NCBI RefSeq assembly: GCF_019075875.1 | Contig: NZ_JAHOOZ010000001.1 | Coordinates: forward strand, 4,650,001-4,714,000 | DNA: 64,000 nt | Direction of reading: 5' to 3' | DNA from: Novosphingobium sp. G106 | Lineage (GTDB): Bacteria; Pseudomonadota; Alphaproteobacteria; Sphingomonadales; Sphingomonadaceae | Shown here: in pieces, positions 8,511 through 35,079 of the stretch | Layout of the letters: every line of letters begins with the position of its first letter | Position numbering within the stretch: the stretch's first letter is position 1 | Translations under genes and position numbers: made by a program | Notes under the pieces: generated by a model | Database searches by the model: none | The model's input: the letters and a program-made list of their open reading frames with translations, nothing else | Told to the model about the DNA's origin: nothing

Positions 8511-8777
8511 ATGAAGCGGAGCAGGTTCAGCGAAGAGCAGATCATTGCGATCTTGAAGGAGCAGGAGGCCGGGGCGCCGACGGCGGACGTGTGCCGGCGT
8601 CACGGGGTGAGCAGCGCGACCTTTTACAAGTGGAAGGCCAAGTTTGGCGGCTTGGAGGTGTCGGAGGCGAAGCGCCTGCGGCAGCTTGAGGACGAGAACG
8701 CGAAGCTGAAGAAGCTGCTCGCGGAGGCGATGCTGGACAACGCGATGCTCAAGGAGATCACCGCAAAAAAATGGTGA
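8511..8777 (+). CDS. IS3-family transposase OrfA
   Basis: An 88-residue protein with an N-terminal helix-turn-helix ([28 protein letters not shown], about residues 6-44) and a C-terminal leucine-zipper-like helix ([20 protein letters not shown]). In IS3 elements OrfA binds the ends and controls transposition, and a fused OrfAB made by ribosomal -1 frameshifting is the transposase. The frame ends in an A7 run at 8765-8771, the usual slippery site, overlapping the start of orfB. Preceded by a GGAGT site. Confidence 0.92.
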
Positions 8778-9676
8778 CGCCCGCTGTCAGGCGGGAAGCG
8801 GTGGCTCACCTCGAGCAGGTGTTTGAGGTGAGCCAGCGGCGGGCGTGTGATGTTCTGGGCGTGGACCGGACGATGGTGCGGTATCGCAGCCGGCGAGGCG
8901 ATGACGGTGCGATCCGGGAGCGGATGCGCGGCCTGGCGGCGGAGCGTCGGCGGTTCGGCTATCGCCGCCTGCACTGGCTGCTGGGGCGCGAGGGCGTCGT
9001 GATCAACCACAAGAAGTTCCGCCGGCTGTACCGCGAGGAACGGCTGCAGGTGCGTCGCCGCGGTGGCCGCAAGCGGGCGCTGGGCACGCGTGCACCGATG
9101 ACGATCCCGCAAGGTCGCAACCAGCGCTGGTCGCTCGACTTCGTGTCGGACGCGTTCGCCTGTGGCCGGCGGTTCCGTATCTTTGCGGTGGTCGACGACT
9201 TCACCCGCGAGTGTGTCCGGCTCATCGCCGACACCTCGATCTCCGGGATGCGCGTGGCGCGCGAACTCGACTGGGCGATTGTCGAGCGGGCACGTCCGGC
9301 GATGATCGTCAGCGATAATGGCACCGAACTGACCAGCATGGCGATCCTGCGCTGGTCGAAGGAACGCAACGTCGAGTGGCACTACATCGCGCCGGGCAAG
9401 CCGCAGCAGAACGGGTTTATCGAAAGCTTCAACGCCCGGCTTCGGGACGAGTGTTTGAACGAGACGATCTTCACCAGCCTGCCTCAGGCCCGATCGGTGC
9501 TCGCCGCCTGGCGACATGATTACAACCATCACCGGCCCCACTCGAGCCTAGACAACATGACCCCGGCCGAGATGGCAGCCAAATCAGTCGGCAAACCGGG
9601 TTGGGGGTTAACCCCCAACCCGGTTGTCATCACGCCCAAGCATGGGCATCAATCGGGCCACCGGCTCTACTCTTAG
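8771..9676 (+). CDS. IS3-family transposase OrfB (DDE integrase)
   Basis: The 301-residue frame carries the rve integrase core of IS3 transposases: SLDFVSDAF (first Asp), [11 protein letters not shown] (second Asp) and [16 protein letters not shown] (Glu). An HTH_21 segment ([12 protein letters not shown], about 57-70) precedes the core and a C-terminal [14 protein letters not shown] motif follows. It is expressed as OrfAB through the A7 slip at 8765-8771; the apparent ATG is part of the slip site. All three catalytic acids are present and the frame is intact, so the element may still be active. Confidence 0.93.
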
Positions 9677-15104: not shown

Positions 15105-16736
<1,632 letters not shown>

Positions 16737-16786
16737 TCAACTCCTTTCCAGATTTCCTTCCAATGTTTGAGGACAAGCGGGGGGCC

Positions 16787-17101
16787 TCAGGCCGCCTGCT
16801 TGAGCTGGGCCTGGGTCTCGACCACGCCGAGGATGTCGCTCTCCTTCATGATGAGCAGATCCTCGCCGGCGATCTTGACTTCGGTCCCCGACCATTTGCC
16901 GAACAGAACGCGGTCGCCGGCCTTGACCGAGAGCTCGACCAGCCGGCCGGCATCGTCTCGCGCGCCCGGGCCGACGGCGACGACTTCGCCTTCCTGCGGC
17001 TTTTCCTTGGCGGTGTCGGGAATGATGATGCCGCCCGAGGTCTTCTCCTCGGCTTCGATACGGCGGACGACCACACGGTCGTGCAAGGGGCGGAAATGCA
17101 T
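16787..17101 (-). CDS. groES: Co-chaperonin GroES
   Basis: From ATG 17101 (GGAGG six bases upstream) a 104-residue GroES is encoded: [20 protein letters not shown], a mobile loop with [10 protein letters not shown] that contacts GroEL, then [11 protein letters not shown] and [15 protein letters not shown]. The C-terminal extension [12 protein letters not shown] is a little longer than usual. A second in-frame ATG at 17134 with an even stronger GGAGGAGG site would add 11 residues; that site is buried in a hairpin. First gene of a groES-groEL operon. Confidence 0.96.
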
Positions 17102-17137
17102 GCATAACCTCCAGATGCAAAACGTTGATGTCATGAA

Positions 17138-17160
17138 CCTCCTCCCTTGCGGGCAGGAGG
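17138..17160 (-). promoter_or_regulatory. Hairpin in groES leader covering an upstream Shine-Dalgarno
   Basis: In the leftward transcript CCTCC pairs with the GGAGG of a perfect Shine-Dalgarno (positions 17156-17160 with 17138-17142), extended by an A-T pair and three G-C pairs around a four-base loop with one bulge. The sequestered site serves the upstream ATG 17134. It could act as a simple RNA thermometer or merely set the start choice; this is inference from base pairing only. Confidence 0.35.
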
Positions 17161-17214
17161 CGGCGCAGAAATATGAAACTCGCTTTTCCCGATCAAGAGG
17201 GTGCGAAAAATTTT

Positions 17215-17241
17215 TTGGCAGTCGTGCGCCAAGAGTGCCAG
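17215..17241. promoter_or_regulatory. CIRCE-like operator (HrcA site) upstream of groESL
   Basis: TTGGCAGTC (17215-17223), nine bases, then GAGTGCCAG (17233-17241). The CIRCE consensus is TTAGCACTC-N9-GAGTGCTAA; both arms fit with two differences each and the spacer is exactly nine. It lies about 115 bp before the groES start, the expected place. HrcA, the heat-shock repressor that needs GroEL for activity, is the known ligand of this element. Confidence 0.75.
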
Positions 17242-17370
17242 AAGTGCATGTTCTCAGCAGCTTGCGCTCTCGGTGGGTCTTGACTTGCCGGCGAGCAGAT
17301 CCAAAATTCTAGAAAGGCGGGGCCTTAATGCCGCCGCCGAGAAGGAGCGACCATCTGAAAGGAGGATAGC

Positions 17371-17604
17371 ATGTCGCAGACCGTCTCCCGCTTCGTTCAT
17401 CCCTTCGACGTCGTCCACCACCCTACGCTGGAGCCCGAGGTGAAACGCGCAATCCTCGCCTCCTGGGCTTCGGACCGCGTCGCCGTTCCGGACCACCCAG
17501 CCCTTCGCCAGCCAGCTGGACTGGATGAGCCGATACCCATCGATGATGTACTGGCCGCGCTTCACGCTCTGGATAGCAATTCGCAGCCTCCGAGCCTGCA
17601 GTGA
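17371..17604 (+). CDS. Small conserved hypothetical protein
   Basis: A 77-residue protein with AAAGGAGGATAGC before ATG 17371. It reads MSQTVSRFVHPFDVVHHPTL, then KRAILASWASDR and PIDDVLAALHALDS. The central EVKRAILASWASD followed by a proline-rich linker and a DVLAAL helix resembles short proteins that accompany usg-type and heat-shock genes in sphingomonads; I cannot name a family. Its stop overlaps the next start (ATGA-type overlap at 17602-17606), so the two are translationally coupled. Confidence 0.75.
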   Translation: MSQTVSRFVHPFDVVHHPTLEPEVKRAILASWASDRVAVPDHPALRQPAGLDEPIPIDDVLAALHALDSNSQPPSLQ

Positions 17605-17870
17605 TGGCCGGTTCCGATCTGCTGAAGCAGCTTCAGGGCAGCGCGCTGACGACGGCAGAAATCCACTATTTCCTGCCAGACTATCCGAGCCTGCTGCAGC
17701 TTTTCATCTGGCAGGACTATGACGAAGCGCCGGACTTTCCGGCGCTTCACCTCTTCCTCGGCCATTGGCACAGAGAAATCGATGGGATTTTGCATTCGGT
17801 CAGGGTCGCCCATCGCCGCGATGTCGGGCCGCCTCGCTGGCGGAACCTCGACGCGATCAGGCCAATCTAA
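17604..17870 (+). CDS. Usg-family protein
   Basis: An 88-residue protein matching the Usg family almost end to end: LTTAEIHYFLPDYPSLLQLF, IWQDYDEAPDFPALHLFL, then HWHREIDGILHSVRVAH. Usg was named for its place upstream of a phosphoribosylanthranilate isomerase gene; its activity is not known. ATG 17604 overlaps the stop of the preceding gene; GTG 17601 is the alternative. A third small gene follows within 30 bp, making a compact three-gene operon. Confidence 0.85.
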   Translation: MAGSDLLKQLQGSALTTAEIHYFLPDYPSLLQLFIWQDYDEAPDFPALHLFLGHWHREIDGILHSVRVAHRRDVGPPRWRNLDAIRPI

Positions 17871-17897
17871 TCTTGAAATTCTGCAAATGAGGGAGCG

Positions 17898-18119
17898 ATG
17901 ATCTACCGACTTTACTCGGCCGATCGCCGGGCAGGAAGCCCGATCGGTGAAACCGAAATGCCCAGCAACTTCGCAGCACTCGACTGGGCGCAGTCCTGGC
18001 TGCGCGAGCAAAGCGGGAGCGAGCGCTATTCCATCGCAAGCGAGGACGGCAGCTTCGGCGCAACTTTTGTTAGAACTGCCGGCGGGCAGTGGTATGCCAT
18101 CGGCCAGGACCCAGGCTAA
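17898..18119 (+). CDS. Small hypothetical protein (73 aa)
   Basis: Follows the Usg gene by 27 bp, with GAGGGAGCG before ATG 17898. The sequence MIYRLYSADRRAGSPIGETE, then AALDWAQSWLREQSGSERYS and FVRTAGGQWYAIGQ, alternates strands and one helix and looks like a small alpha/beta domain. No family recognised. A strong hairpin (GCTTGCCGG ... CCGGCAAGC, about 18164-18200) lies after it and also after the convergent Hsp20 gene, so it may end both transcripts. Confidence 0.65.
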   Translation: MIYRLYSADRRAGSPIGETEMPSNFAALDWAQSWLREQSGSERYSIASEDGSFGATFVRTAGGQWYAIGQDPG

Positions 18120-18163
18120 GCACGAGCCTATTGTAGCCGCACCGAAAATCGCAAGAATTGCGT

Positions 18164-18200
18164 AGCTTGCCGGGCCACCGAGAAGGTGGCGCCGGCAAGC
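18164..18200. terminator. Possible bidirectional terminator hairpin
   Basis: GCTTGCCGG and GCCACC pair with GGTGGC and CCGGCAAGC, giving a long, nearly perfect stem around a GAGAA loop. It sits between two convergent genes. There is no T run on either side, so Rho-independent activity is uncertain. Confidence 0.5.
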
Positions 18201-18216
18201 CCTTCACATCCCGGGA

Positions 18217-18694
18217 TCAGGCCGCGTCGCGCGCCTCATCCTTCGGGCCTTCGATGCGATCGTTGGCGGCCTTGCCGCCGATCTCGATACGCCGCGGCTT
18301 CATCGCTTCTGGCACCACGCGCCTCAGCGCGATCGTGAGCAAACCGTGCTCGAAGGTTGCGTTGCCAGCCTCGATAAAGTCGGCAAGCTGGAAGCGGCGC
18401 TCGAAAGAGCGCGTGGCGATACCGCGGTGCAGATATTCACCGCTGGTATCGTCATCGGAGCGCTTGCCTGTCACCGTCAGCAGGTTCTGCTGGGCGACGA
18501 CCTCGATGTCTTCGGGCCGGAAACCGGCCACCGCGAGCGTAATGCGGTAGCTGTCTTCCCCGTCCTTCAGGATATCGAAGGGGGGGAAAGCCATCGGGCA
18601 CTTCAGCGCGCGATCCGGTTTCCAGGAGATCGAAGAGCCGGTCGAAGCCGACCGAGGAACGCCGATAGGGCGCAAAGTCGAAGTTGGTTCTCAT
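18217..18694 (-). pseudogene. Hsp20/IbpA-type small heat-shock protein, frameshifted
   Basis: From ATG 18694 (AGGAGG upstream) the frame reads MRTNFDFAPYRRSSVGFDRL, FDLLETGSRAEVPDGFPP and then leaves the family. One base further, the other frame continues PPFDILKDGEDSYRITLAVA, GFRPEDIEV, LLTVTGKR and a full alpha-crystallin domain to 18217. The switch falls in a seven-G run at about 18580; six would restore a normal IbpA-like protein of about 158 residues. Either a real frameshift mutation or a homopolymer sequencing error. The product would be an ATP-independent holdase. Confidence 0.8.
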
Positions 18695-18994: not shown

Positions 18995-19888
18995 CTAGGC
19001 TGTTACCAACCTCAACATGCGCCCCGATGGCTGCAAGGACACCTGCCGGCCCCAGTCGAACGCGAGATAGTCCTGCTCGATGCCATCGGCGAAAATAACG
19101 CCGCCTTCGTTCATATGCGAGGTGACGCTCAGCGGTGCCCCATCCAGTTTGCCGGCGCGCATCGTGGTCGCGGTGGCGACGCTCGGGAATGGCTCGCGAA
19201 CGAAATAGGCAACTGCATGCTCTTGCGGCGAAAGCAGGATCGGGTTGCCGGTCGCCTCCATGATCGATCGCGCCCAACCGGTCGCACCTGTGCCGGAAGC
19301 AACGATCAGCCCACTCGACGAATGGTTCTCGGCGCTATCACCAATCGCAATGCGATAGCGCGCCGATTGGTGGCTGCGGTGGCCGACGAATAGCTCGTTC
19401 AGCGCGACGAGAGTTTCGCCCGTGTCGAGCACGGCTTCGACCATCGTCCGCTCTTCGATCGTGATGTCCCCGTGGTGAGAAGCGCGCAGAGCCCGGTGCA
19501 AATTACCGAGCGGCACTCGCACCAGAACGCCGTCGTAAAGATCCGGCGCCGGGTTCACTCCCAGCACCGGCTGCCCGCTCAAATATTTGGCGACGTTTGC
19601 GATCAGGCCATCCTGGCCGACCGCGATGATCACATCGTCGGGCGCGAACAGGAAGCGGTCGAGGTCGGCGCGGCGTACCAGGGCCTGCCGCCAATCGGCG
19701 GGCGCCGAGGCGCGCGCCTGGCGCAGCACAGCCTGGAACTTTGCGTGGCGCGCCTCGAGATCAGCCAACCTCTGCCCGCGCGTCTCGAGATAGAAACGCG
19801 CCTGCTCGCGCGTGGCATGCCGCGCGAGCAGAAGCTCATAGTCGGTCTCGCGCGTCACGAACACGGCCCGGGGTGCGGTGGTGGTCAT
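18995..19888 (-). CDS. NAD(+) kinase-like protein
   Basis: A 297-residue protein of the NAD/diacylglycerol-kinase fold. The nucleotide motif, normally GGDGT, is GQDGL at residues 91-95; the NE pair of the second motif is N164-E165 (VALNELFVGHR); the glycine-rich segment is SSGLIVASGTGATGW at 191-205. The N-terminal 80 residues are a helical extension rich in Arg. NAD kinases make NADP from NAD and ATP or polyphosphate. The altered GGDG motif leaves activity open. It is the last gene of an operon with an SPFH protein (11-bp gap) and an NrtR-like protein, which supports a role in NAD(P) balance. Confidence 0.8.
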   Translation of the reverse strand: MTTTAPRAVFVTRETDYELLLARHATREQARFYLETRGQRLADLEARHAKFQAVLRQARASAPADWRQALVRRADLDRFLFAPDDVIIAVGQDGLIANVAKYLSGQPVLGVNPAPDLYDGVLVRVPLGNLHRALRASHHGDITIEERTMVEAVLDTGETLVALNELFVGHRSHQSARYRIAIGDSAENHSSSGLIVASGTGATGWARSIMEATGNPILLSPQEHAVAYFVREPFPSVATATTMRAGKLDGAPLSVTSHMNEGGVIFADGIEQDYLAFDWGRQVSLQPSGRMLRLVTA

Positions 19889-19899
19889 GATCGCGCCGC

Positions 19900-20886
19900 C
19901 TATTTAGCCGTGATCGCCGCTGGAGGCGCTTGCCGGAACTCGCGCATAATCGTCGCCAGCAGGTCGGGCGTGACGTTCAGGTGCTCGATCGTGTCGAGAT
20001 TGCCGGCCAGTTCCCGAGCCGCAAGACCAAGGAGGACCGCGGGTGGAAGGTCGCGGTAGATCGCGATGTGCGCCTGCTCCGTCTCTGCCTTGGCGCTCTC
20101 AATCGTGCGGATGCGTCCGGCCTCGGCTCCCGCCTCGATCTGCTGGGCTTCCGCAAGTCCCGTCGCGCGGTTGCGGGCATTCTCCGCCTCCTCGGCGATC
20201 AGCTGTTTTTCGCGCCGTGCGAGCTCGGTCTTGTTGGACAGTTCGTTCTCCGCGATCGCGCGCTCCTTGTCGACCGCGAGCGCCCGGCGCTCGAACATCG
20301 CCTCGTCCGCCTTTTGCTGTAGCTGCTCGAAGGTCGGCGTCTGAAGCGCGCGTTCCAGTTCGCTGCTCGGTGCAAGATTGTTGAGGCGTACAGCCACGAC
20401 GGCGAGGCCGATCTCGGCGAGCGTCGGATCATTGGCGAGCGCCTGTTCGAGCCGCTGGCGCAGCGGTTCGACCCCGGCATCGAGGAGAGCGCGTACGGGG
20501 GCTTCAGCGAGATATTGCAGCGTCGCCTGGTTTACGAGGCCCGCTAGACGCGTCTCGATCCGCTCGATGGGTTCGCGGATATATTGGCCATTGGCCAAGC
20601 CGATGGTGAAATCGATGCGCTCGGCAAGCCGCTCGGGCTCCACCACGCGCCACCCGATCGCGCCCTGGACATTGACCGCCTGGAAGTCGGCACTGCGCCC
20701 CTTGACGAAGAGTGTCGTCTCGCGATCGTCCATCGGGACCTCGGCAATGCTGGCGGTTTCCGGCCTGAACCAGAAGACCAGGCCGCGGCCGCTCTGACGG
20801 ACACGGCCATTGCGGTAGCGGATGACGTGGTGGCTGGCATCGCTGCGCAGCTGCGCGAAGAAACCGAAGCTCGTAATCTGGGCCAT
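19900..20886 (-). CDS. SPFH/band-7 domain protein
   Basis: From ATG 20886 (GGGAGGCAAAG upstream) a 328-residue protein. Residues about 20-190 form an SPFH/band-7 domain (GRGLVFWFRPETASIAEVP, AVNVQGAIGWRVVEPERLAE, ALANDPTLAEIGLAVVAVRL), followed by a long Glu/Ala/Arg-rich coiled coil (about 195-275) and a short C-terminal domain. No obvious N-terminal membrane anchor is visible, so it may be cytosolic or attach peripherally. SPFH proteins form ring or cage oligomers that organise membrane zones or proteases. Position between NrtR-like and NAD-kinase-like genes is unusual. Confidence 0.8.
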   Translation of the reverse strand: MAQITSFGFFAQLRSDASHHVIRYRNGRVRQSGRGLVFWFRPETASIAEVPMDDRETTLFVKGRSADFQAVNVQGAIGWRVVEPERLAERIDFTIGLANGQYIREPIERIETRLAGLVNQATLQYLAEAPVRALLDAGVEPLRQRLEQALANDPTLAEIGLAVVAVRLNNLAPSSELERALQTPTFEQLQQKADEAMFERRALAVDKERAIAENELSNKTELARREKQLIAEEAENARNRATGLAEAQQIEAGAEAGRIRTIESAKAETEQAHIAIYRDLPPAVLLGLAARELAGNLDTIEHLNVTPDLLATIMREFRQAPPAAITAK

Positions 20887-20897
20887 CTTTGCCTCCC

Positions 20898-21623
20898 TCA
20901 ATCGATTGGCTTGAAACGGTAGAGTTCCGCGGGTCGGAACGAAGTGCCTGCCTCGCGTTCGCCGGTGCCTTCAAGCCAGCCGCGGTCGAGCATGCGGCGC
21001 CGAAAGGCGGGCTTGTTCAGTCGCACACCGAGGATCGCTTCATGGACATCCTGCAACTGGCGCAGCGTGAACAGCTCGCGCAACAGCGCAAAGGCGATCG
21101 GCGAATAGTCGAGCTTTCCCCGCAGGCGCTTGATCGCGAGACCGAGAATATCGGCGTGGTCGAAGGCCAAAGGGAGCACTTCTCCCTGATCATCGCAGGC
21201 GGTGACCAGGCCGCCGACCTCTCCCGCCCAGGGGATGGTGAGCTCGGCAAGCGTCAGTTCGGCGCTCTGCTTGAGGGCGGCCGCGAACCGATCCGCCGGC
21301 AGCAATGCGAAATAAGCGATCGTGACAACGCGGGTTCGAGGATCGCGCTTTGGAGCGCCGAAAGTGTAGAGCTGCTCGATATAGGCATCTTCGAGGTGCG
21401 CCTCTGTCCCGAGCAGCCGGAGTGCCGCTTCGTCCAGGCCTTCGTCGATACCGACAAATCCCCCTGGCAACGCCCATTGCCCCAGGAACGGATGCTCCTC
21501 GCGTCGGCGCAGAAGCGCAGCAGGAACGCCCTCGACCATCGTCATGAGAACGAGGTCAACGGTGACCGAGGGCCGTGCGAAGACAGCCGGATCATAGCTG
21601 GCAAGGAACTCGTCTTCGGTCAT
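20898..21623 (-). CDS. NrtR-like Nudix-domain transcriptional regulator
   Basis: Start at ATG 21623 is preferred (AAGG upstream, and the ATG at 21650 lies inside a palindrome). Residues about 15-140 are a Nudix fold (VTVDLVLMTMVEG, GQWALPGGFVGIDEGLDEAA), but the REUxEE catalytic signature is lost (LRLLGTEAHL). The C-terminal 80 residues form the winged helix typical of NrtR (LRELFTLRQLQDVHEAILG, FRRRMLDRGWL). NrtR binds ADP-ribose or related compounds and represses NAD genes. It heads the SPFH/NAD-kinase operon and likely controls it. Confidence 0.8.
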   Translation of the reverse strand: MTEDEFLASYDPAVFARPSVTVDLVLMTMVEGVPAALLRRREEHPFLGQWALPGGFVGIDEGLDEAALRLLGTEAHLEDAYIEQLYTFGAPKRDPRTRVVTIAYFALLPADRFAAALKQSAELTLAELTIPWAGEVGGLVTACDDQGEVLPLAFDHADILGLAIKRLRGKLDYSPIAFALLRELFTLRQLQDVHEAILGVRLNKPAFRRRMLDRGWLEGTGEREAGTSFRPAELYRFKPID

Positions 21624-21635
21624 GGCAAAAGCCTT

Positions 21636-21652
21636 ATATGCGTCATGCATAT
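21636..21652. promoter_or_regulatory. Palindrome at head of NrtR-like operon (putative operator)
   Basis: ATATGC (21636-21641), GTCAT, GCATAT (21647-21652): a perfect 6-bp inverted repeat with five-base spacer, 13 bp before the chosen start of the regulator. Surrounding sequence is AT-rich (TTAGTTATACGCAAAATGG), as expected of a promoter. Autoregulation through this site is inference. Confidence 0.45.
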
Positions 21653-21801
21653 TAGTTATACGCAAAATGGATATATGTCAAATGAGAATAAGAGTCCGAG
21701 TGTGCGAAATTCCGAAAACCCCCTCGATCGAGGGATGGCGCGCGGCCCGAAAGTAATGTTGGTTAGGCGCTCTCTCAGCGCTTACCAACGAGACGCGCGG
21801 C

Positions 21802-22029
21802 ATGAGCGATGACGAAGATGCCCGGGCGGAGCGGGCCCGCAGCGGCCATCCGTTTTTGAATTCCCCGCAGGCGGCCCATTATCTGCGCATGTCCAACCGG
21901 CAGATGGAACGGCTGCGAAGCCGCGGCGACGGGCCACGCTTTCGCCGGCATGGGCGATACGTCCGATATCATATCGACGACCTTGATGCCTGGTCGGAGA
22001 GCACGCGGATACCGAGCGACGGAGACTGA
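21802..22029 (+). CDS. AlpA/excisionase-like HTH protein
   Basis: A 75-residue DNA-binding protein: FLNSPQAAHYLRMSNRQMER (helix-turn-helix), LRSRGDGPRFRRHGRYVRYH (wing) and IDDLDAWSES. This is the MerR-like HTH_17 type used by excisionases and AlpA-like activators of mobile elements. It marks the left side of the plasmid/ICE-type gene block; a second protein of this type is at 33888-34097. ATG 21802 has only a weak ribosome binding site. Confidence 0.85.
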   Translation: MSDDEDARAERARSGHPFLNSPQAAHYLRMSNRQMERLRSRGDGPRFRRHGRYVRYHIDDLDAWSESTRIPSDGD

Positions 22030-22599: not shown

Positions 22600-23640
22600 A
22601 TGCGCCAAGCCTGCCGACCTTACGCTCGCGGACGACGTTCCGTGTCCCGGACCCATGAGCCGCGCGCCAATCTCTATGACGAGGTGACTGCCCGCATCGT
22701 CGCCGAGCTCGAAGCCGGTCGCTTCCCGTGGGTGCAGCCTTGGGCCGGCAGCGCGGGCCTTGAAGCGGGCGGGATCGCGCCGGGACTGCCGCGCAATGCG
22801 CTCACCTCGCGCGCCTATTCTGGGATCAACGTCCTGATCCTCTGGGGCGCGGTCATCGAGCGGGGCTATCCTTCGCAGGGCTGGCTCACTTACCGGCAGG
22901 CGGCGAGCGCGGGCGGCTCCGTTCGCAAGGGCGAGAGCGGGACCTGCGTCGTCTATGCCGACCGTTTCGTGCCCGAGGCCGAGAAGGTGCGCGCGCACGA
23001 TACCGGCGAGGACGCCCGCGCCGTCCCCTTCCTCAAGCGCTTCACGGTCTTCAACGTTGCGCAATGCGATGGCCTGACCGAGGGACTTGCCATCGACGCC
23101 CCATTGCTGCCCGAGCGCGAAGTGGTGCCGCTTGCTGAGCAGGTGATCGCAGCCTCGGGCGTCGATTTCCGGGTCGGCGGCGCCAAGGCCTTCTACGTGC
23201 CAAGTGCCGACTATGTGCAGGTGCCGCCGCAGCCCGCTTTCTTCGAGCAGATCAACTACTACCGCACCGCGCTCCACGAACTGACCCACGCGACCGGCCA
23301 CGCCTCGCGGCTGGCGCGCGACCTCAAGAACACGTTCGGTTCGAAGGATTACGCGCGCGAGGAACTCGTCGCCGAGATGGGCAGCGCCTTCCTCTGCGCG
23401 GCGCTCGGGATCGTCCCGACCGTGCGGCATGCCGACTATCTGGGCAGCTGGCTCGAGGTCCTCAAGGAGGACAACCGGGCGGTGTTCCGTGCCGCTAGCC
23501 AAGCGAGCAAGGCGGCCGATTGGCTGCTCGCGCGGCATGCCGCTTTCGCGGGCGATGCCGCTGGCGATTCGCAAGCCGAAGCACCCCGCACGGACGCGAC
23601 CGATCCGGTCCAGCCTCGGCAAGAGGGAGAAGCGGCATGA
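22600..23640 (+). CDS. ArdC-like antirestriction/zincin protein (DUF1738 + metallopeptidase-like)
   Basis: The 346-residue protein has the ArcD-type ssDNA-binding N-terminal domain of ArdC (NLYDEVTARIVAELEAGRFP, W-x-QPW, PRNALTSRAYSGINVL, about residues 25-130) and a C-terminal zincin-like domain with HELTHATGH (about 226-234) and an EELVAEMGSAFL helix. ArdC-type proteins protect incoming plasmid DNA from restriction. GAGGTGACCC precedes ATG 22600; GTG 22642 is the alternative. Its stop overlaps the DUF2958 start. Typical of the plasmid/ICE modules of alphaproteobacteria. Confidence 0.85.
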   Translation: MRQACRPYARGRRSVSRTHEPRANLYDEVTARIVAELEAGRFPWVQPWAGSAGLEAGGIAPGLPRNALTSRAYSGINVLILWGAVIERGYPSQGWLTYRQAASAGGSVRKGESGTCVVYADRFVPEAEKVRAHDTGEDARAVPFLKRFTVFNVAQCDGLTEGLAIDAPLLPEREVVPLAEQVIAASGVDFRVGGAKAFYVPSADYVQVPPQPAFFEQINYYRTALHELTHATGHASRLARDLKNTFGSKDYAREELVAEMGSAFLCAALGIVPTVRHADYLGSWLEVLKEDNRAVFRAASQASKAADWLLARHAAFAGDAAGDSQAEAPRTDATDPVQPRQEGEAA

Positions 23641-24053
23641 TCATCTTGCCTCCCCAGCTGCGCACGGCGCTGCGTTTCAACCACTTCGCTCGGCTCCAGG
23701 CGCTTCGCGAGGAACGCCCCGAGCCCGATCCGATTCCGGTCATCAAGCTGTTCAATCCCATCGGCGCGGCGACGTGGCTCGCGAGCGAACTCGGGTCAGA
23801 CGGTGACACGCTGTTCGGGCTCGCCGACCTAGGTTTCGGGTGTCCGGAACTTGGGTCTTTCAGCCTGTCGGAGATCGGCGGCGTGCGCCTGCCCTTCGGT
23901 CTCGGGATCGAACGCGACGCCCTGTTCACCAGCGACAAGCCGCTGTCGGTCTGGAGCGAGGCAGCGCGCCGAAACGGAGCGATCTTCCTCGCCGAATTCG
24001 AATTCCGCCGCGACGCGGCAACCGGACTTCCGCCGCTGAGGCGCGGCGGATGA
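23637..24053 (+). CDS. DUF2958 protein
   Basis: A 138-residue protein from ATG 23637, which overlaps the ArdC-like stop (ATGA). It begins MIILPPQLRTALRFNHFARL and contains PVIKLFNPIGAATWLASEL, LFGLADLGFGCPELGSFSL, then ERDALFTSDKPLSVW. This is the DUF2958 family (LPP...LRAN...P-x-VKLF-P...TWL), always found on plasmids and ICEs beside ArdC- and ParB-like genes, role unknown. A perfect 11-bp hairpin follows at 24085-24121. Confidence 0.9.
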   Translation: MIILPPQLRTALRFNHFARLQALREERPEPDPIPVIKLFNPIGAATWLASELGSDGDTLFGLADLGFGCPELGSFSLSEIGGVRLPFGLGIERDALFTSDKPLSVWSEAARRNGAIFLAEFEFRRDAATGLPPLRRGG

Positions 24054-24084
24054 CGTGGGCGGCCGTCCGCCGCCCAACCGAAAG

Positions 24085-24121
24085 CCGGTCCGCGTACCCA
24101 CGCTAATGAAACGCGGACCGG
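24085..24121. terminator. Hairpin after the ArdC-DUF2958 pair
   Basis: CCGGTCCGCGT (24085-24095) pairs perfectly with ACGCGGACCGG (24111-24121) around a 15-nt loop. It lies 30 bp after the DUF2958 stop and just beyond the 3' end of the group II intron. No T run, so termination is plausible but not certain. Confidence 0.5.
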
Positions 24122-24196
24122 CGCCTCTCTCGAAAGGAGAGTAGGGATGGAGCGCCATACCCCTTCGCAGAGGCTGGTTTCGCCATCCCTCTCGCC

Positions 24197-24230
24197 GAAC
24201 CGGACGTGCAATTTTCACTGCATCCGGCTC
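24197..24230 (-). ncRNA. Group II intron domain V
   Basis: The leftward strand reads GAGCCGGATGCAG, TGAAAAT and TGCACGTCCGGTTC: a 34-nt hairpin with the catalytic AGC triad near its 5' side, a GAAA-type loop and the closing GGTTC. It matches the strongly conserved domain V of bacterial group II introns, the catalytic core that coordinates metal ions for splicing. Confidence 0.88.
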
Positions 24231-24260
24231 TCCACGCGTGACCGAGGCCACGGGTGTCTG

Positions 24261-25829
24261 TCAGGCTACGGCAAGCTGCCGCATCATCGGCCAGAAGTCA
24301 CGGCGGTCTCCCGTCCATGCCTCGTCGATGATGTCCCAACCGTTGGTGATCTTGGTGCCCCGGAACGGGTAGGGGGAGGTGCCCCCCTCACTGAACCGGC
24401 GCAGCCGCGCCGTTCCCTCTGTCCAACGCAGCGGCCCCCCGGGCGCTCTTCGGTAGAAGCGCCGGAAGATCGTTCGCCGGGTTTTCGGGTGTTTCTTGCG
24501 CAGCCATCGATAGATGCGCTCCCAAAGCCAGTGGTCCAGTTTGCTGAACTCACGGCATGCTCGCATGGCGTGACGATAGTAGGTTCGCCACCCCAGTATG
24601 AGCGGGTTGAGGTTGTCGATGATGGCGGACAGCGCGAGCAGAAGGCTCGGCCTCTTGGTCCGCGCCTTGATCGTATCGCGCAGACGCTGCAGCCTGCTCA
24701 GTGGAATGAGCAGTTTGCAGACGAACCGCCCGGATCGGGGGGATCGCTTCTTCACGATCCGATAGCCGAGAAAGTCGAAGCCCTTTCGGATATCGGTGAT
24801 CAAGGTTTTCTCAGGCGACAATTCAAGGCGCAATTCCTCGCGGAGGAACCTTGCCAGCGCTTCCTTCTCGGCTTCTGCCGCCGCTCTTGGTCCCGACACG
24901 AGAACGACGAAGTCGTCCGCATATCGCACGATGTAGAAGGTGGCCTTGCCGCTATTGTAATCGCGACCGCGACGCTGGGTCGCGCTGGTCACCGTCTCGT
25001 ATGGACCCGGCGTCCACCGCCTGTATCGCTCGTCGATCGCTGTCAGGACGATGTTCGACAGCAGCGGCGATATGATGCCGCCCTGCGGAGTTCCCGCGAC
25101 TGGGTGGCGAACGGTGGTCTCGACCATGATCCCTGCCCTCAGGAAGGCGAGCACGAGCCGCAGGATCTTGCGATCCCTTATGCGGCGTCGCACCCGCTCC
25201 ATCAGCCGGTGGTGGTCGATGTTGTCGAAGCATCCTTTGATATCGCCTTCGATCACGTAGGTGATCCGCGAGTTACACCAGCGGTTCGGGTTAACCTGCC
25301 GCTGGATCATCGCGATGGCGTCGTGGGTGCTGCGACGACGTCGGAAGCCGAACGAGGTCGGATAGAAGTCCGCCTCGAAGATCGGCTCCAGAACAAGCTT
25401 CAAAGCCATCTGTACCAAGCGGTCTTTCAGCGTAGGAATGCCCAGCGGTCGGACCTGACCCGGCTTTCCCGCTTTGGGGATAAGCCGCTGCCGCACAGGC
25501 TGAGGCCTGTAAGTTCCTGCGCGAAGCTCCGCCTCGATCTCGTCGAGAAAGCGCTCCACGCCGCCGGTACGCTGTTCGACCTGTATCCGCCCCATGCCGT
25601 CTGTGCCGGGCGTCCTGCTGCCCCTGTTACGGGCCATCTTGCGCCAAGCGTAGCCGAGCGTGCGGCGGTCACTCACCAGATTGAACAAGTCCCCAAACGT
25701 CTTGTCCGGGGCTGCCTGACTCCACCGATACAGCTTGCACTGCATGTCGAGGATGAACTCGGTATTCACCGGGCCGGGCTGACGCCCACCTCCTGCCGGC
25801 TCGCTGTATCCGCTGCCCCCCTTCGCCAT
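24261..25829 (-). CDS. ltrA: Group II intron reverse transcriptase/maturase
   Basis: The 522-residue protein shows the RT domains in order: RNRGSRTPGTDGM (RT0/1), VRPLGIPTLKDRLVQ, SFGFRRRRSTHDA, GTPQGGIISPLLSN (247-260) and the catalytic YADD at 303-306, followed by KGFDFLGYRIVKK and a maturase X domain with LNPLILGWRTYYRHA. It helps the intron fold and splice and copies it into new sites. There is no HNH endonuclease domain at the C terminus, so it probably uses replication-fork primers for insertion. The frame is intact. Confidence 0.93.
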   Translation of the reverse strand: MAKGGSGYSEPAGGGRQPGPVNTEFILDMQCKLYRWSQAAPDKTFGDLFNLVSDRRTLGYAWRKMARNRGSRTPGTDGMGRIQVEQRTGGVERFLDEIEAELRAGTYRPQPVRQRLIPKAGKPGQVRPLGIPTLKDRLVQMALKLVLEPIFEADFYPTSFGFRRRRSTHDAIAMIQRQVNPNRWCNSRITYVIEGDIKGCFDNIDHHRLMERVRRRIRDRKILRLVLAFLRAGIMVETTVRHPVAGTPQGGIISPLLSNIVLTAIDERYRRWTPGPYETVTSATQRRGRDYNSGKATFYIVRYADDFVVLVSGPRAAAEAEKEALARFLREELRLELSPEKTLITDIRKGFDFLGYRIVKKRSPRSGRFVCKLLIPLSRLQRLRDTIKARTKRPSLLLALSAIIDNLNPLILGWRTYYRHAMRACREFSKLDHWLWERIYRWLRKKHPKTRRTIFRRFYRRAPGGPLRWTEGTARLRRFSEGGTSPYPFRGTKITNGWDIIDEAWTGDRRDFWPMMRQLAVA

Positions 25830-26409
25830 GTGAACGGCTTTCCCGTTCTCGGACTACTACGAGGGCTCCGTCCCACGTCACCGCGATCATCGGTCGCTTC
25901 GATCATCTCCGTGAGAGATGCGGCAACGTGGTTCTTGGGTTCCGCAACTGACCTTTCACTTGCTTTAGGGACCGACTTTACCCCGTGTGACAACTGGCCT
26001 GCGACCACCACAGTCTTAGTCGCAAGCTGGCGCGCGGATGACCGCGCTCCCCTGGGCCGCTTCACCTACAGCCAGCCCGGCGCATCACTGGCCCGAAGGC
26101 CATGCCGCCCACATCCGCATCGGCGACATTCATGTTCCAACGAGGCGTCAACCATCGGTTCGATTCCTCTTCCCTTGGCAAGTTCGCTCGCCGGGTCGCT
26201 TCAGATCGCGGAAGTTCTCCTGTCCCCGGCTTTGACGGGTTCTGCTCATTTACGGCTCGCCGGAAGCACCCGGTTCACCTCACCCGTCTGCTTTTCCCCC
26301 CGCGCTGCGTCGCGTTGGGCGCGAGGTCCTCCCCCTCGCAAGGTCATTCGCAGCTTTTAATGATCAGAATTTCTCCTTTCTTTTCAAACCCAACGCACAG
26401 GCAACTGTC

Positions 26410-28251
26410 ATGATCCTCGACTTTATCGCTCTCGACAAGCTCCGCGTCAGCAAGGCCAACATGCGCCATGCGAAAAAGCCGCCCGACGTCTCGGACATCC
26501 TTCCCACCGTTCGCGCGCGCGGCGTGCTCGTTCCGCTGATCGTGCGGCCCTGCGCCGGGTCCGGAGAGGATGGCGCCCCCCTCTTCGAGATCGTCGCAGG
26601 CGCGCGGCGCTTCCATGCCGCGCGCATCGTCGCCGACGAGCAAGGCGGGACGGGCGGCGAGATCGATCCGCTGCCCTGCGCGGTACTGGACGCAGGCGAC
26701 GACGCCGCAGCTATCGAAGCCTCGCTGATCGAGAACCTTGCCCGGCTGGAGCCCGACGAGGTCACGCAGTGGGAGACTTTTACCCGTCTCGTTCGCGAAG
26801 GCCGCGAGCCCGAGGCCATCGCCGCGACTTTCGGCCTTGCCGACCTCACGGTCCGGCGCGTCCTCGCGCTCGGCAACCTGCTGCCGCGCATTCGCGACCT
26901 CTACCGCCGCGACAAGATCGACCGCCTGACGGTGCGGCACCTGACGCTTGCCAGCAAAGCGCGGCAGCGCGACTGGCTCGGGCTGCATGACGATCCGCAG
27001 GCCCACGCGCCCACAGGCCAGAACCTCAAGTCATGGCTATTCGGCGGCCAGTCGATCCCCTTGCGCCATGCGCTCTTTGACACGGCCGGCATGGACGGGA
27101 TCGTCACCGACCTGTTCGGCGAGGACGCCTGGTTCGCGGACGCCGAGGCCTTCTGGGCCAAGCAGGACGCGGCCATCGAGGAACGCCGCGCGGCCTATCT
27201 CGAAGCAGGCTGGGCCGATGTGGTCGTGGTCCCGCGCGGCAGCCACTTCCAGAGCTGGGAGCATGAGAAGGCGCCCAAGCGCAAGGGCGGGCGCGTCTAT
27301 ATCGACGTGCGAACAAGCGGAGAGGTGAGCTTCCACGAGGGCTATGTCACCCGAAAGGAAGCGCAGCGGATCGAACGCGGCGAGCCGGCCTCGACGCCGA
27401 AGACGCCGCGCCCGGAACTCACCAGCAGCGTCCAGACCTATGTCGACCTGCACCGCCATGCCGCGCTGCGCGCCGCAATGACCGGGCACCCCGCGCTCGC
27501 GCTGCGGCTCATGGTCGCGCACGCCATCGCCGGCTCGCCGCTCTGGACGCTGCGGACCGAGCCACAGGCGACGAAGGACGATGCAATCGGCGAAAGCGTC
27601 GAAGTCTCGCCGGGCGAAACGCTGTTCGACGAGAAGCGCCGCGCCGTCCTCGCGCTGCTTAGAATGTCCGCCGAGGAGCCGACCGTGACCGGGGGGCACG
27701 ATCCCCACGGCCTCGTCGGCCTGTTCCAGCGGCTCGTCGCGCTGGACGACGCGGCAGTTCTCTCGGTGATCGCGGTCGTCATGGGCGAGACGCTGCAAGC
27801 GGGAAGCGCCGCGGTCGATGCTGTCGGCGCCGAGATCGGCATCGACATGGCGCGCTGGTGGCAGGCCGATGAGGCGTTCTTCACAGGGCTTCGCGACCGC
27901 GAGGTCCTGACCGCGATGGTTGCCGAGGTGGCCGGCCCCCGCGTTGCCGAGGCCAATGCGCGCGAGACGGGCAAGGTCTTGAAACAGATTGTGCGCGATC
28001 ATCTCGCGGGTTCGGGCGGGCGCGAGAAGGTCGAGGGCTGGGTGCCGCGCTGGATGGCCTTCCCGCCCGCAGCCTATACGGCGCGCGGCGGCGTTGGCAG
28101 CGTTGCCGCCCATGCTGACGTCATGGCGGCGCGAGCGGCTTTGGACGTCGAGGCGCAAGCGGAAACGGATGCGCCGGATGAGACGAACGGAGCAGGGACC
28201 GAAGACGGCGATGGCGCCGCTGACGTCGCGGTGCAGCAGCTCGCGGCTTAG
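26410..28251 (+). CDS. ParB/RepB-like partition-family protein
   Basis: A 613-residue protein. Residues about 5-110 are a ParB N-terminal domain (LDKLRVSKANMRHA, RGVLVPLIVRP, EIVAGARRFHAARI, IEASLIENLARLEPDEVTQW), followed by an HTH (IAATFGLADLTVRRVLALG) and a long C-terminal region specific to the plasmid/ICE version, ending in an acidic tail. In these elements such proteins are usually not partnered by ParA and may act as nuclease-like or regulatory factors; no ParA is seen here. The gene starts 80 bp after the intron. A classic member of the ArdC/DUF2958/DUF736 module. Confidence 0.85.
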   Translation: MILDFIALDKLRVSKANMRHAKKPPDVSDILPTVRARGVLVPLIVRPCAGSGEDGAPLFEIVAGARRFHAARIVADEQGGTGGEIDPLPCAVLDAGDDAAAIEASLIENLARLEPDEVTQWETFTRLVREGREPEAIAATFGLADLTVRRVLALGNLLPRIRDLYRRDKIDRLTVRHLTLASKARQRDWLGLHDDPQAHAPTGQNLKSWLFGGQSIPLRHALFDTAGMDGIVTDLFGEDAWFADAEAFWAKQDAAIEERRAAYLEAGWADVVVVPRGSHFQSWEHEKAPKRKGGRVYIDVRTSGEVSFHEGYVTRKEAQRIERGEPASTPKTPRPELTSSVQTYVDLHRHAALRAAMTGHPALALRLMVAHAIAGSPLWTLRTEPQATKDDAIGESVEVSPGETLFDEKRRAVLALLRMSAEEPTVTGGHDPHGLVGLFQRLVALDDAAVLSVIAVVMGETLQAGSAAVDAVGAEIGIDMARWWQADEAFFTGLRDREVLTAMVAEVAGPRVAEANARETGKVLKQIVRDHLAGSGGREKVEGWVPRWMAFPPAAYTARGGVGSVAAHADVMAARAALDVEAQAETDAPDETNGAGTEDGDGAADVAVQQLAA

Positions 28252-34182: not shown

Positions 34183-35079
34183 GTGCATGACGACCTCTCG
34201 CATTTGCCGGCGAAGCAGCAGGATGAGTTGCAGCGCGCTGTCCGCATTCTCATGGAGGAATTCGAGAAGGCGATCGTGCTCGGCAATCAGGCGTGGAAGC
34301 GCGGCGGCAAGATTTACAAGATCATCCTGTTCGGCTCATACGCGCGAAGCGACTGGGTCGACGACCCGAAGAGCGGTTACCAGTCGGATTTCGACCTGCT
34401 CGTCATCGTAAGCCATGAGAAACTGACTGAAGTCGCCGAATACTGGTATGTTGCCGAGGACAGGATCCTGCGCGACGAGAGCATCGGCCGCCAGGTCAAC
34501 ATCATCGTCTACGACCTCAACGATGTGAACAACGCGCTCAAGCGTGGCGAGTACTTCTGGGCCGACATCGCTCGCGACGGCATCGTGCTGTACGAACTGC
34601 CCAATCACCCATTGGTGAAGCCCGTGCCGCTCACTAAATATGAGGCGGTGCAAACGGCAGAGCGGCATCTGGCCCTGTGGCTCGAAAAAGTCGATAGCGC
34701 ACTCGAACTTGCACTGCTTGCGATTGAACGAAATCGTCGAAACGACGCCGCGTTCTTGCTCCATCAAGCGACCGAGCGGGCCTATGCTTGCTTTCTACTC
34801 ACCTCCACGTTCTATTTTCCTAAGTCACACAACATCAAGTTTCTACGATCTCTTTCAGAGAGTAAGGAGCCACAGCTCGTCGAGGCATGGGCGCGCGATT
34901 CCAAGATTGATCGCCGTCGTTTCGAGCTGTTGAAGCGTGCTTACGTCGAGGCACGCTACTCATCAAACTACAGCATCTCGATTGAGGATCTTGATGCCCT
35001 GTACACGTCGGTGAAGCGATTGCGAGATATCGTGTCGCAGCTATCCGAGAAGCGGATCACCGAACTTTCGCGATCGTAG
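34183..35079 (+). CDS. Nucleotidyltransferase-HEPN fusion protein
   Basis: GTG 34183 is the only start that gives the full protein, since an in-frame stop lies two codons upstream. Residues about 43-120 form a minimal nucleotidyltransferase with GSYARSDW (51-58) and the metal pair SDFDLLV (D69, D71). Residues about 160-290 are a HEPN domain (AERHLALWLEKVDSALELAL, NRRNDAAFLLHQATERAY, LLKRAYVEARYSSNYSI). Separate MntA/HepT proteins are a toxin-antitoxin pair in which the transferase AMPylates the HEPN RNase; here both are fused. The RNase R-x4-6-H motif is not clear. Likely phage defence or stress role. Confidence 0.8.
   Translation: MHDDLSHLPAKQQDELQRAVRILMEEFEKAIVLGNQAWKRGGKIYKIILFGSYARSDWVDDPKSGYQSDFDLLVIVSHEKLTEVAEYWYVAEDRILRDESIGRQVNIIVYDLNDVNNALKRGEYFWADIARDGIVLYELPNHPLVKPVPLTKYEAVQTAERHLALWLEKVDSALELALLAIERNRRNDAAFLLHQATERAYACFLLTSTFYFPKSHNIKFLRSLSESKEPQLVEAWARDSKIDRRRFELLKRAYVEARYSSNYSISIEDLDALYTSVKRLRDIVSQLSEKRITELSRS

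Follow-up and report, generated by a model that had tools for sequence, protein, structure and literature searches.

What relates three genes that follow one another on the minus strand of a 64,000-nucleotide stretch of the Novosphingobium sp. G106 genome (contig NZ_JAHOOZ010000001.1, positions 4,650,001 to 4,714,000; hereafter the window)? The genes (window 18995-21623, all in the same orientation) code for an NrtR-type regulator of 241 amino acids (aa) (20898..21623), an SPFH/Band-7 protein of 328 aa (19900..20886) and a kinase-fold protein of 297 aa resembling the mitochondrial NAD kinase NADK2 (18995..19888). Between the end of the regulator stop codon (20898) and the SPFH ATG (20886), and again between the end of the SPFH stop codon (19900) and the ATG of the kinase-like gene (19888), lie 11 base pairs (bp), as stated in the initial annotation of this DNA, which proposed a three-gene operon. 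We found that the SPFH and kinase-like genes form a near-obligate pair to which the regulator is recurrently linked. With confidence a little above even, we take the three genes for a mobile accessory NAD(P) module, an ADP-ribose-induced NAD(H)-kinase unit that would be scaffolded by the SPFH protein.

The coupling was assessed in 77 loci, all found with the kinase-like protein alone: 13 from a scan of genome contigs, 13 from close relatives and the window's own phylum, 8 of 70 plasmid records and 43 new carriers from phylum samples. In 75 of the 77 loci a same-strand SPFH sequence was located just upstream of the kinase gene. The two misses (L120 and L151) had less than 140 bp of contig left, and in the genome of L151 an SPFH gene was found at the start of another contig. 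Among the 75, the SPFH-kinase gap reached 632 bp in L012, and the SPFH gene of L132 had one frame break. In the reverse direction, of 199 planctomycete genomes searched with an SPFH profile, 27 had the SPFH subfamily. Every one of the 26 kinase carriers was among them; in the 27th genome only 228 bases of a 3,730-bp contig remained beyond the end of the SPFH gene. Protein distances of the two partners correlated across 73 loci (r = 0.889, with shared ancestry not removed), a value reached in none of 2000 permutations.

The expectation that the three genes are conserved together thus held strongly for SPFH and kinase and moderately for the regulator. An NrtR gene was found within 1.6 kb of the pair in 32 of the 77 loci (30 of the 63 with enough flanking sequence) and within 5.5 kb in 36. 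Its placement varied: upstream on the same strand, divergent or downstream. The divergent form appeared in plasmid annotations of Rhizobium, Methylomonas and Providencia, where the kinase is named 'sugar kinase' or 'hypothetical protein'. The Methylomonas plasmid has another NUDIX gene, which was considered as an NAD enzyme and dropped, having no Pfam match; an AAA ATPase beside the Rhizobium pair gave weak kinase-type matches. In two phyla, the gene next after the kinase codes for a protein of 520-570 aa (L119:5442-7001 and L127:8322-10031); the two proteins are homologous, with no Pfam match and a weak match to class I methyltransferases.

The lack of a published link is the only point in favor of three unrelated genes having become co-oriented neighbors by chance. 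The 75 loci are spread over several phyla and also an archaeal lineage, the coupling holds in both directions, and an operator is shared. For the SPFH and kinase genes, the 75 of 77 loci and the reverse search refute chance adjacency; for the trio as a whole we consider it extremely improbable.

What, then, is the kinase-like protein? Its fold was that of the NAD kinases, and human mitochondrial NADK2 was its best solved match by both fold and profile. Of 8000 candidate clusters, 7998 counted as matches in a profile search, and the best 120 of these were inspected. Source databases give members of the family the names 'NAD kinase', 'sugar kinase' or 'hypothetical protein'. In an alignment of 198 proteins (some being the same gene found twice), 197 rows had a residue at position 92: Q in 147, P in 32, R in 17 and G in 1. 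Therefore G[Q/P/R]DG replaces the GGDG motif in 196 of 197 rows, and the GQDG noticed earlier in the window protein proved to be a family trait. The window protein also carries TGTGATGW in place of TPTGSTAY. On the other hand, D93, N164, D/E165 and the glycine-rich TGxGxTGW were nearly invariant over about 200 rows, the putative catalytic Asp was retained, and the residues which we take to be NAD-binding were largely kept. The bacterial family has in addition an N-terminal EQARFYLE-type motif.

If the changed GGDG motif and the Pfam score below cut-off meant a loss of catalysis, the protein could be a sensor of NAD(P) that tunes SPFH assembly. The near-invariance of D93, N164, D/E165 and TGxGxTGW argues for catalysis, and we regard such a sensor as highly unlikely. 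Nor does the protein replace the ordinary NAD kinase, a role we rejected: 19 of the 20 carriers tested had another PF01513 match, 17 of them above the cut-off (G462 had none, and G456 had one of 23.3 bits). In the window's genome the ordinary NAD kinase is encoded elsewhere, in a frame with GGDG and TPAGSTAY that scores 23 bits, below the cut-off.

Since another PF01513 protein is present in 19 of 20 carriers, NAD kinase activity is usually covered, and the kinase-like protein could have a different chemistry within the same module. It could phosphorylate something other than NAD(H), for example ADP-ribose or another ADP-ribosyl product, disarming or tagging it for neighboring hydrolases and phosphatases. 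The replacement of GGDG throughout the family, the ADP-ribose-releasing enzymes among the neighbors and a DSP/PTP-type phosphatase neighbor in L152 and L156 would agree with such a role. However, the closest relative remains NADK2, whose structures were deposited as mitochondrial NAD kinase; the presumed NAD-binding residues are largely retained; and the neighbors NAMPT and PncB point to the dinucleotide pool. We consider this chemistry rather unlikely and continue with the NAD(H)-kinase reading.

The SPFH protein matched Band_7 with an E-value of 6.8e-12 and 46.2 bits (cut-off 23.6). Many, though not all, SPFH/Band-7 members have an N-terminal membrane anchor. No transmembrane stretch was found in the window protein, where the highest 19-residue hydropathy mean was 1.15, in line with the earlier remark that an anchor was not visible; 11 of 74 relatives, read as stop-to-stop frames, exceeded 1.6. 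The predicted structure showed an SPFH fold followed by a long helix (residues 186-278), with a predicted local distance difference test score (pLDDT) of 80. The closest folds were prohibitin, HflK/C, stomatin, erlin and flotillin, and then the vault protein, while the nearest solved sequences had an E-value of 0.0015 at best. Because its relatives are of the prohibitin, HflK/C and stomatin type, the protein would probably assemble into a ring or a cage.

How is the pair controlled in the window? The regulator matched NrtR_WHD (8.6e-22, 77.5 bits, cut-off 27) and NUDIX (8.8e-10, 39.2 bits, cut-off 21.1), with the domain order of the NrtR family: an N-terminal Nudix domain and a C-terminal winged helix. 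Among solved structures, the Shewanella regulator 3gz5 matched it best (1.2e-35). In its Nudix box, GFVGIDEGLDEAALRLLGTE, RLLGTE stands at the place of REUxEE, so the catalytic signature is degenerate, as the initial annotation had read it. The ATG at 21623 is the likely start, because the N-terminus MTEDEFLASYDP resembles those of relatives; a longer, TTG-started frame would include the palindrome ATATGC-N5-GCATAT. This perfect palindrome had been noted right before the regulator. We found it exactly, at 21636-21652 (a site without strand), and the correction of the start leaves 12 bp between it and the start codon.

A second copy of the trio is present in the same genome (L043:7665-10288 on contig 2 of G000, C2, 382,550 bp), with identities to the window of 94.6% for NrtR, 97.6% for SPFH and 92.3% for the kinase. 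Allowing one mismatch at most, 0.03 occurrences of the palindrome would be expected by chance in the window. Its extended form, TAAKATGC-N5-GCATATAAG, occurred exactly at two places in the 7.2-Mb genome, both before trio copies; with up to three mismatches, on both strands, we counted 8 matches compared to 4 for the reversed control. Over the window and the 77 loci (1,140,932 bases) all six exact sites were situated before nrtR of trio loci (the window, L043 and the planctomycete loci L137, L139, L141 and L142), as were 6 of 7 one-mismatch and 9 of 27 two-mismatch sites.

The sites are also paired. A distal operator-like site in the window (21658..21674, two mismatches) is 22 bp from the proximal one; the same spacing was found in L043, which carries the same double operator, and in L050, and a spacing of 15 bp in six planctomycete loci. 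By eye, we recognized a putative promoter on the minus strand (21653..21681), with TTGACA (21681-21676) and TAACTA (21658-21653) separated by 17 bp. The distal site overlaps this stretch and the proximal site abuts it. TTGACA-17-TAACTA is present in L043 as well, and L050 has TTGCCT-17-TAACTA. An operator pair over a putative promoter makes a repressor-type layout, and the palindrome is very likely the operator of the regulator. Other lineages have other inverted repeats; L049 and L057, for example, share TCAACTAAGTTAGTTGA, and the Dictyobacter locus L012, with no NrtR beside it, has CTTAGTGTTATATATACACTAAG. Of 33 promoters with NrtR, 8 had perfect 8-bp arms, compared to a mean of 0.4 and a maximum of 1 in 20 shuffles.

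Which process the module serves is suggested by its neighbors in other genomes. Genes of NAD salvage or ADP-ribose metabolism were found near the pair in 13 of the 77 loci, with neighbor seeds picked after a first look at the neighbors. NAMPT was present in L007, L126 and L127, with PRPP-synthetase-type genes too in L007 and L127; PncB came straight after the kinase in L044, and L046 had it at a greater distance. Four loci (L048, L131, L152 and L153) had NADAR near the pair. Two ADP-ribosylglycohydrolase seeds, with no match in the window at 1e-6, matched in five other loci (L048, L131, L142, L144 and L147); ten first-tested candidates for such genes turned out to be something else. Microbial PARG, Sir2 and KptA were found in L131, KptA and RlaP in L007, and Sir2 about 5 kb from the pair in L051.

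For example, the gene order in L142 and L144 was NrtR-SPFH-kinase-ADP-ribosylglycohydrolase, and in L048 NrtR was followed by SPFH-kinase-DUF4291-NADAR-ADP-ribosylglycohydrolase. L131 (5832-14111) had NADAR-SPFH-kinase-DUF2971-PARG-DUF4291 and then Sir2, ADP-ribosylglycohydrolase and KptA. A chance control, made for NADAR only and covering 56 of 64 carrier genomes, gave 24 NADAR genes in 23 genomes. Four were within 0.75 kb of the pair, compared to 0.044 expected (10-kb windows, 5.5-Mb genomes; P about 1.5e-7); a fifth was about 6 kb off in the genome of L007. A Pfam tally of neighbors, from 108 of 292 frames that were hand-chosen, several being already of interest, and thus not an unbiased sample, had three members of ADP_ribosyl_GH and two each of NAPRTase, NADAR and NAMPT_N, with 14 further families shown also at two each. 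Since the pair adjoins NAD-recycling or ADP-ribose-removing genes in some genomes, it points to an NAD/NADP maintenance unit; the NAD/ADP-ribose link suggested by the initial annotation gains support from the same genes.

Taken as an NAD(P) module, the locus could work as follows. Sitting on the double operator that covers the promoter, the NrtR-type repressor would keep the operon off. NrtR proteins described so far come off DNA upon binding of ADP-ribose (PMC6800001). With breakdown of NAD+, free ADP-ribose would rise, bind to the degenerate Nudix domain and release the repressor. The operon would then supply the NADK2-like kinase along with its dedicated soluble SPFH protein, whose probable ring or cage might carry, concentrate or regulate the enzyme. 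Acting alongside the housekeeping NAD kinase, the kinase would convert NAD(H) to NADP(H) and so rebuild or protect the pyridine-nucleotide pool. In other genomes the pair is combined with enzymes of NAD salvage (NAMPT, PncB, PRPP synthetase) or with removers of ADP-ribose (NADAR, ADP-ribosylglycohydrolase, PARG).

Several observations weigh against this reading. The kinase-like protein scored 18.4 bits against Pfam NAD_kinase (PF01513, cut-off 25.5) and at best 38.2 bits against the NCBIfam NAD-kinase models (equivalog cut-off 316), and its GQDG departs from the GGDG of NAD kinases. The predicted template-modeling score (pTM) of the SPFH model was just 0.49. Given 154.8 bits versus a cut-off of 400, the regulator is a relative of NrtR, and not an equivalog as defined by NCBIfam NF050029; in 45 of the 77 loci the pair had no NrtR closer than 1.6 kb. 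Perfect 8-bp arms were found also in 5 of 38 promoters without NrtR (shuffles: mean 1.55, maximum 3), and among the eight repeats found with NrtR, that of L050 (CGGGTCC...) differs in type from the operator, so an inverted repeat upstream of these loci need not be an operator in each case. By the seeds used, 64 of the 77 loci show no NAD or ADP-ribose neighbor, and the NAD-metabolism and ADP-ribose genes sought were found neither elsewhere in the window nor beside the second copy of the trio. Finally, in L044 the SPFH gene is reduced to about 49 C-terminal residues beside an intact kinase, and therefore the kinase can persist without SPFH. This locus (L044:9262-10341) is from the sphingomonad G006 and has the PncB gene right behind the kinase. 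On balance, what the initial annotation had observed was confirmed, and its interpretation was partly supported.

Is the module transferred between genomes? The 13 loci of the contig scan came from three sphingomonads, Armatimonadetes, Planctomycetota, Bacteroidia, two Dictyobacter, a Lachnospiraceae bin, a Heimdallarchaeota bin, Elusimicrobia, Rubrobacter and one further bacterium. In phylum samples (kinase matches at E up to 1e-25; the centre genome, a known carrier, is counted in each) we found 12 carriers in 398 genomes of the own phylum, 4 in 249 for the phylum of L008's genome, 4 in 201 for that of Dictyobacter, 5 in 148 for that of the Heimdallarchaeota bin, 26 in 199 for the planctomycetes and 9 in 247 for the phylum of the Bacteroidia bin. 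Among 61 close relatives, the kinase family was found only in the own genome and in G006; 14 other matches, of 24-37 bits, were in the range of ordinary NAD kinases. Kinase matches were present in 70 of 72,556 plasmid records, 42 of them from Rhizobium. Such a patchy spread of the kinase family is as expected for transferred genes. A phage origin was rejected: none of 50,697 phage records matched, and none of 39 pattern matches in viral contigs was a relative.

One record labeled as a plasmid (NZ_OL790811.1, Proteus mirabilis, L058) is chromosome-sized at 4.08 Mb; it has a divergent NrtR, and its SPFH-kinase pair is situated between predicted terZ and tet(J).

The patchy distribution and the 70 plasmid records would also suit a conflict module, induced by ADP-ribose from phage or toxin ADP-ribosylation or from an NADase, which moves NAD+ into NADP(H) or helps to reverse the damage. 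The linked NADAR (4 loci), ADP-ribosylglycohydrolase (5 loci), PARG with KptA (L131) and RlaP (L007) are compatible with it. The survey of Iyer et al. 2022 predicts ADP-ribosylglycohydrolase systems with Nudix regulators that act against viral ADP-ribosylation, often with a phosphatase and sometimes with NADAR or Macro (PMC9503650). However, the three proteins matched no family of PADLOC-DB 2.0.0 at E up to 1, by which a known antiphage system was rejected; the 64 loci devoid of such neighbors by our seeds also speak against this idea, as does the absence of kinase relatives from phages and viral contigs, though the latter rules nothing out. We judge a conflict module unlikely, and the NAD(P) maintenance module remains our preferred reading.

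Around the trio, the window contains several mobile-element genes: an ArdC-type anti-restriction gene, a group II intron reverse transcriptase and a ParB-domain gene directly upstream (22600-28251), and an integrase-core gene (8771-9676). A HEPN-domain protein is encoded near this mobile region (34183-35079). Downstream of the trio, genes for GroES (Cpn10), GroEL (Cpn60) and Hsp20 follow on the same minus strand (15105-18675). A plus-strand open frame of 307 codons antisense to nrtR (20889-21812) is probably an artefact of high-GC coding DNA.

With these results, a large and variously named kinase family gains a context that bears on function, with a predicted physical and functional partner, operator and inducer. 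The NAD+/ADP-ribose network of bacteria and archaea gains a component, and an old question, what it is that soluble SPFH proteins scaffold, is made testable. The relationship to NADK2 may also be relevant to how the mitochondrial enzyme arose. A bolder proposal, which we hold tentatively and think doubtful, is that soluble, anchor-free SPFH rings or cages obligately house an NADK2-like kinase as a transferable device for NAD rescue and against ADP-ribosylation, signaled by ADP-ribose and spread over many bacterial phyla and Asgard archaea, with mitochondrial NADK2 being a stand-alone relative.

How does the trio compare with known systems? We found no description of an SPFH-NAD-kinase-like pair in the open-licence literature searched. 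The predicted systems of Iyer et al. 2022 are similar in that Nudix regulators, ADP-ribosylglycohydrolase, NADAR and phosphatase recur by the pair in some loci; unlike them, the window itself lacks the partner enzymes sought (ADP-ribosylglycohydrolase, NADAR or phosphatase type), and a search of the text of PMC9503650 gave no mention of NAD kinase, NADK, band-7, stomatin or SPFH. With the NrtR family (Shewanella 3gz5/3gz6; Mycobacterium, PMC6800001) the regulator shares the lost Nudix catalytic box, the NrtR winged helix and a predicted palindromic operator in front of its own gene, and in L126 and L127 the NrtR-like gene heads a cluster containing NAMPT. In contrast to known NrtR proteins, its predicted target is the SPFH-kinase pair, its score is far under the equivalog cut-off, and the window operator differs from the published mycobacterial one, GTTTTCGA-N7-TCGAAAAC. 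The SPFH protein resembles prohibitin, HflK/C, stomatin, QmcA and flotillin in its Band_7 match, SPFH fold and long helix; unlike those proteins it has no transmembrane anchor, and its partner is a kinase-like enzyme rather than FtsH or an NfeD protein. Finally, human mitochondrial NADK2 (7r4j, 7n29) keeps GGDG, whereas the bacterial family has G[Q/P/R]DG, the additional N-terminal motif and a dedicated SPFH partner.

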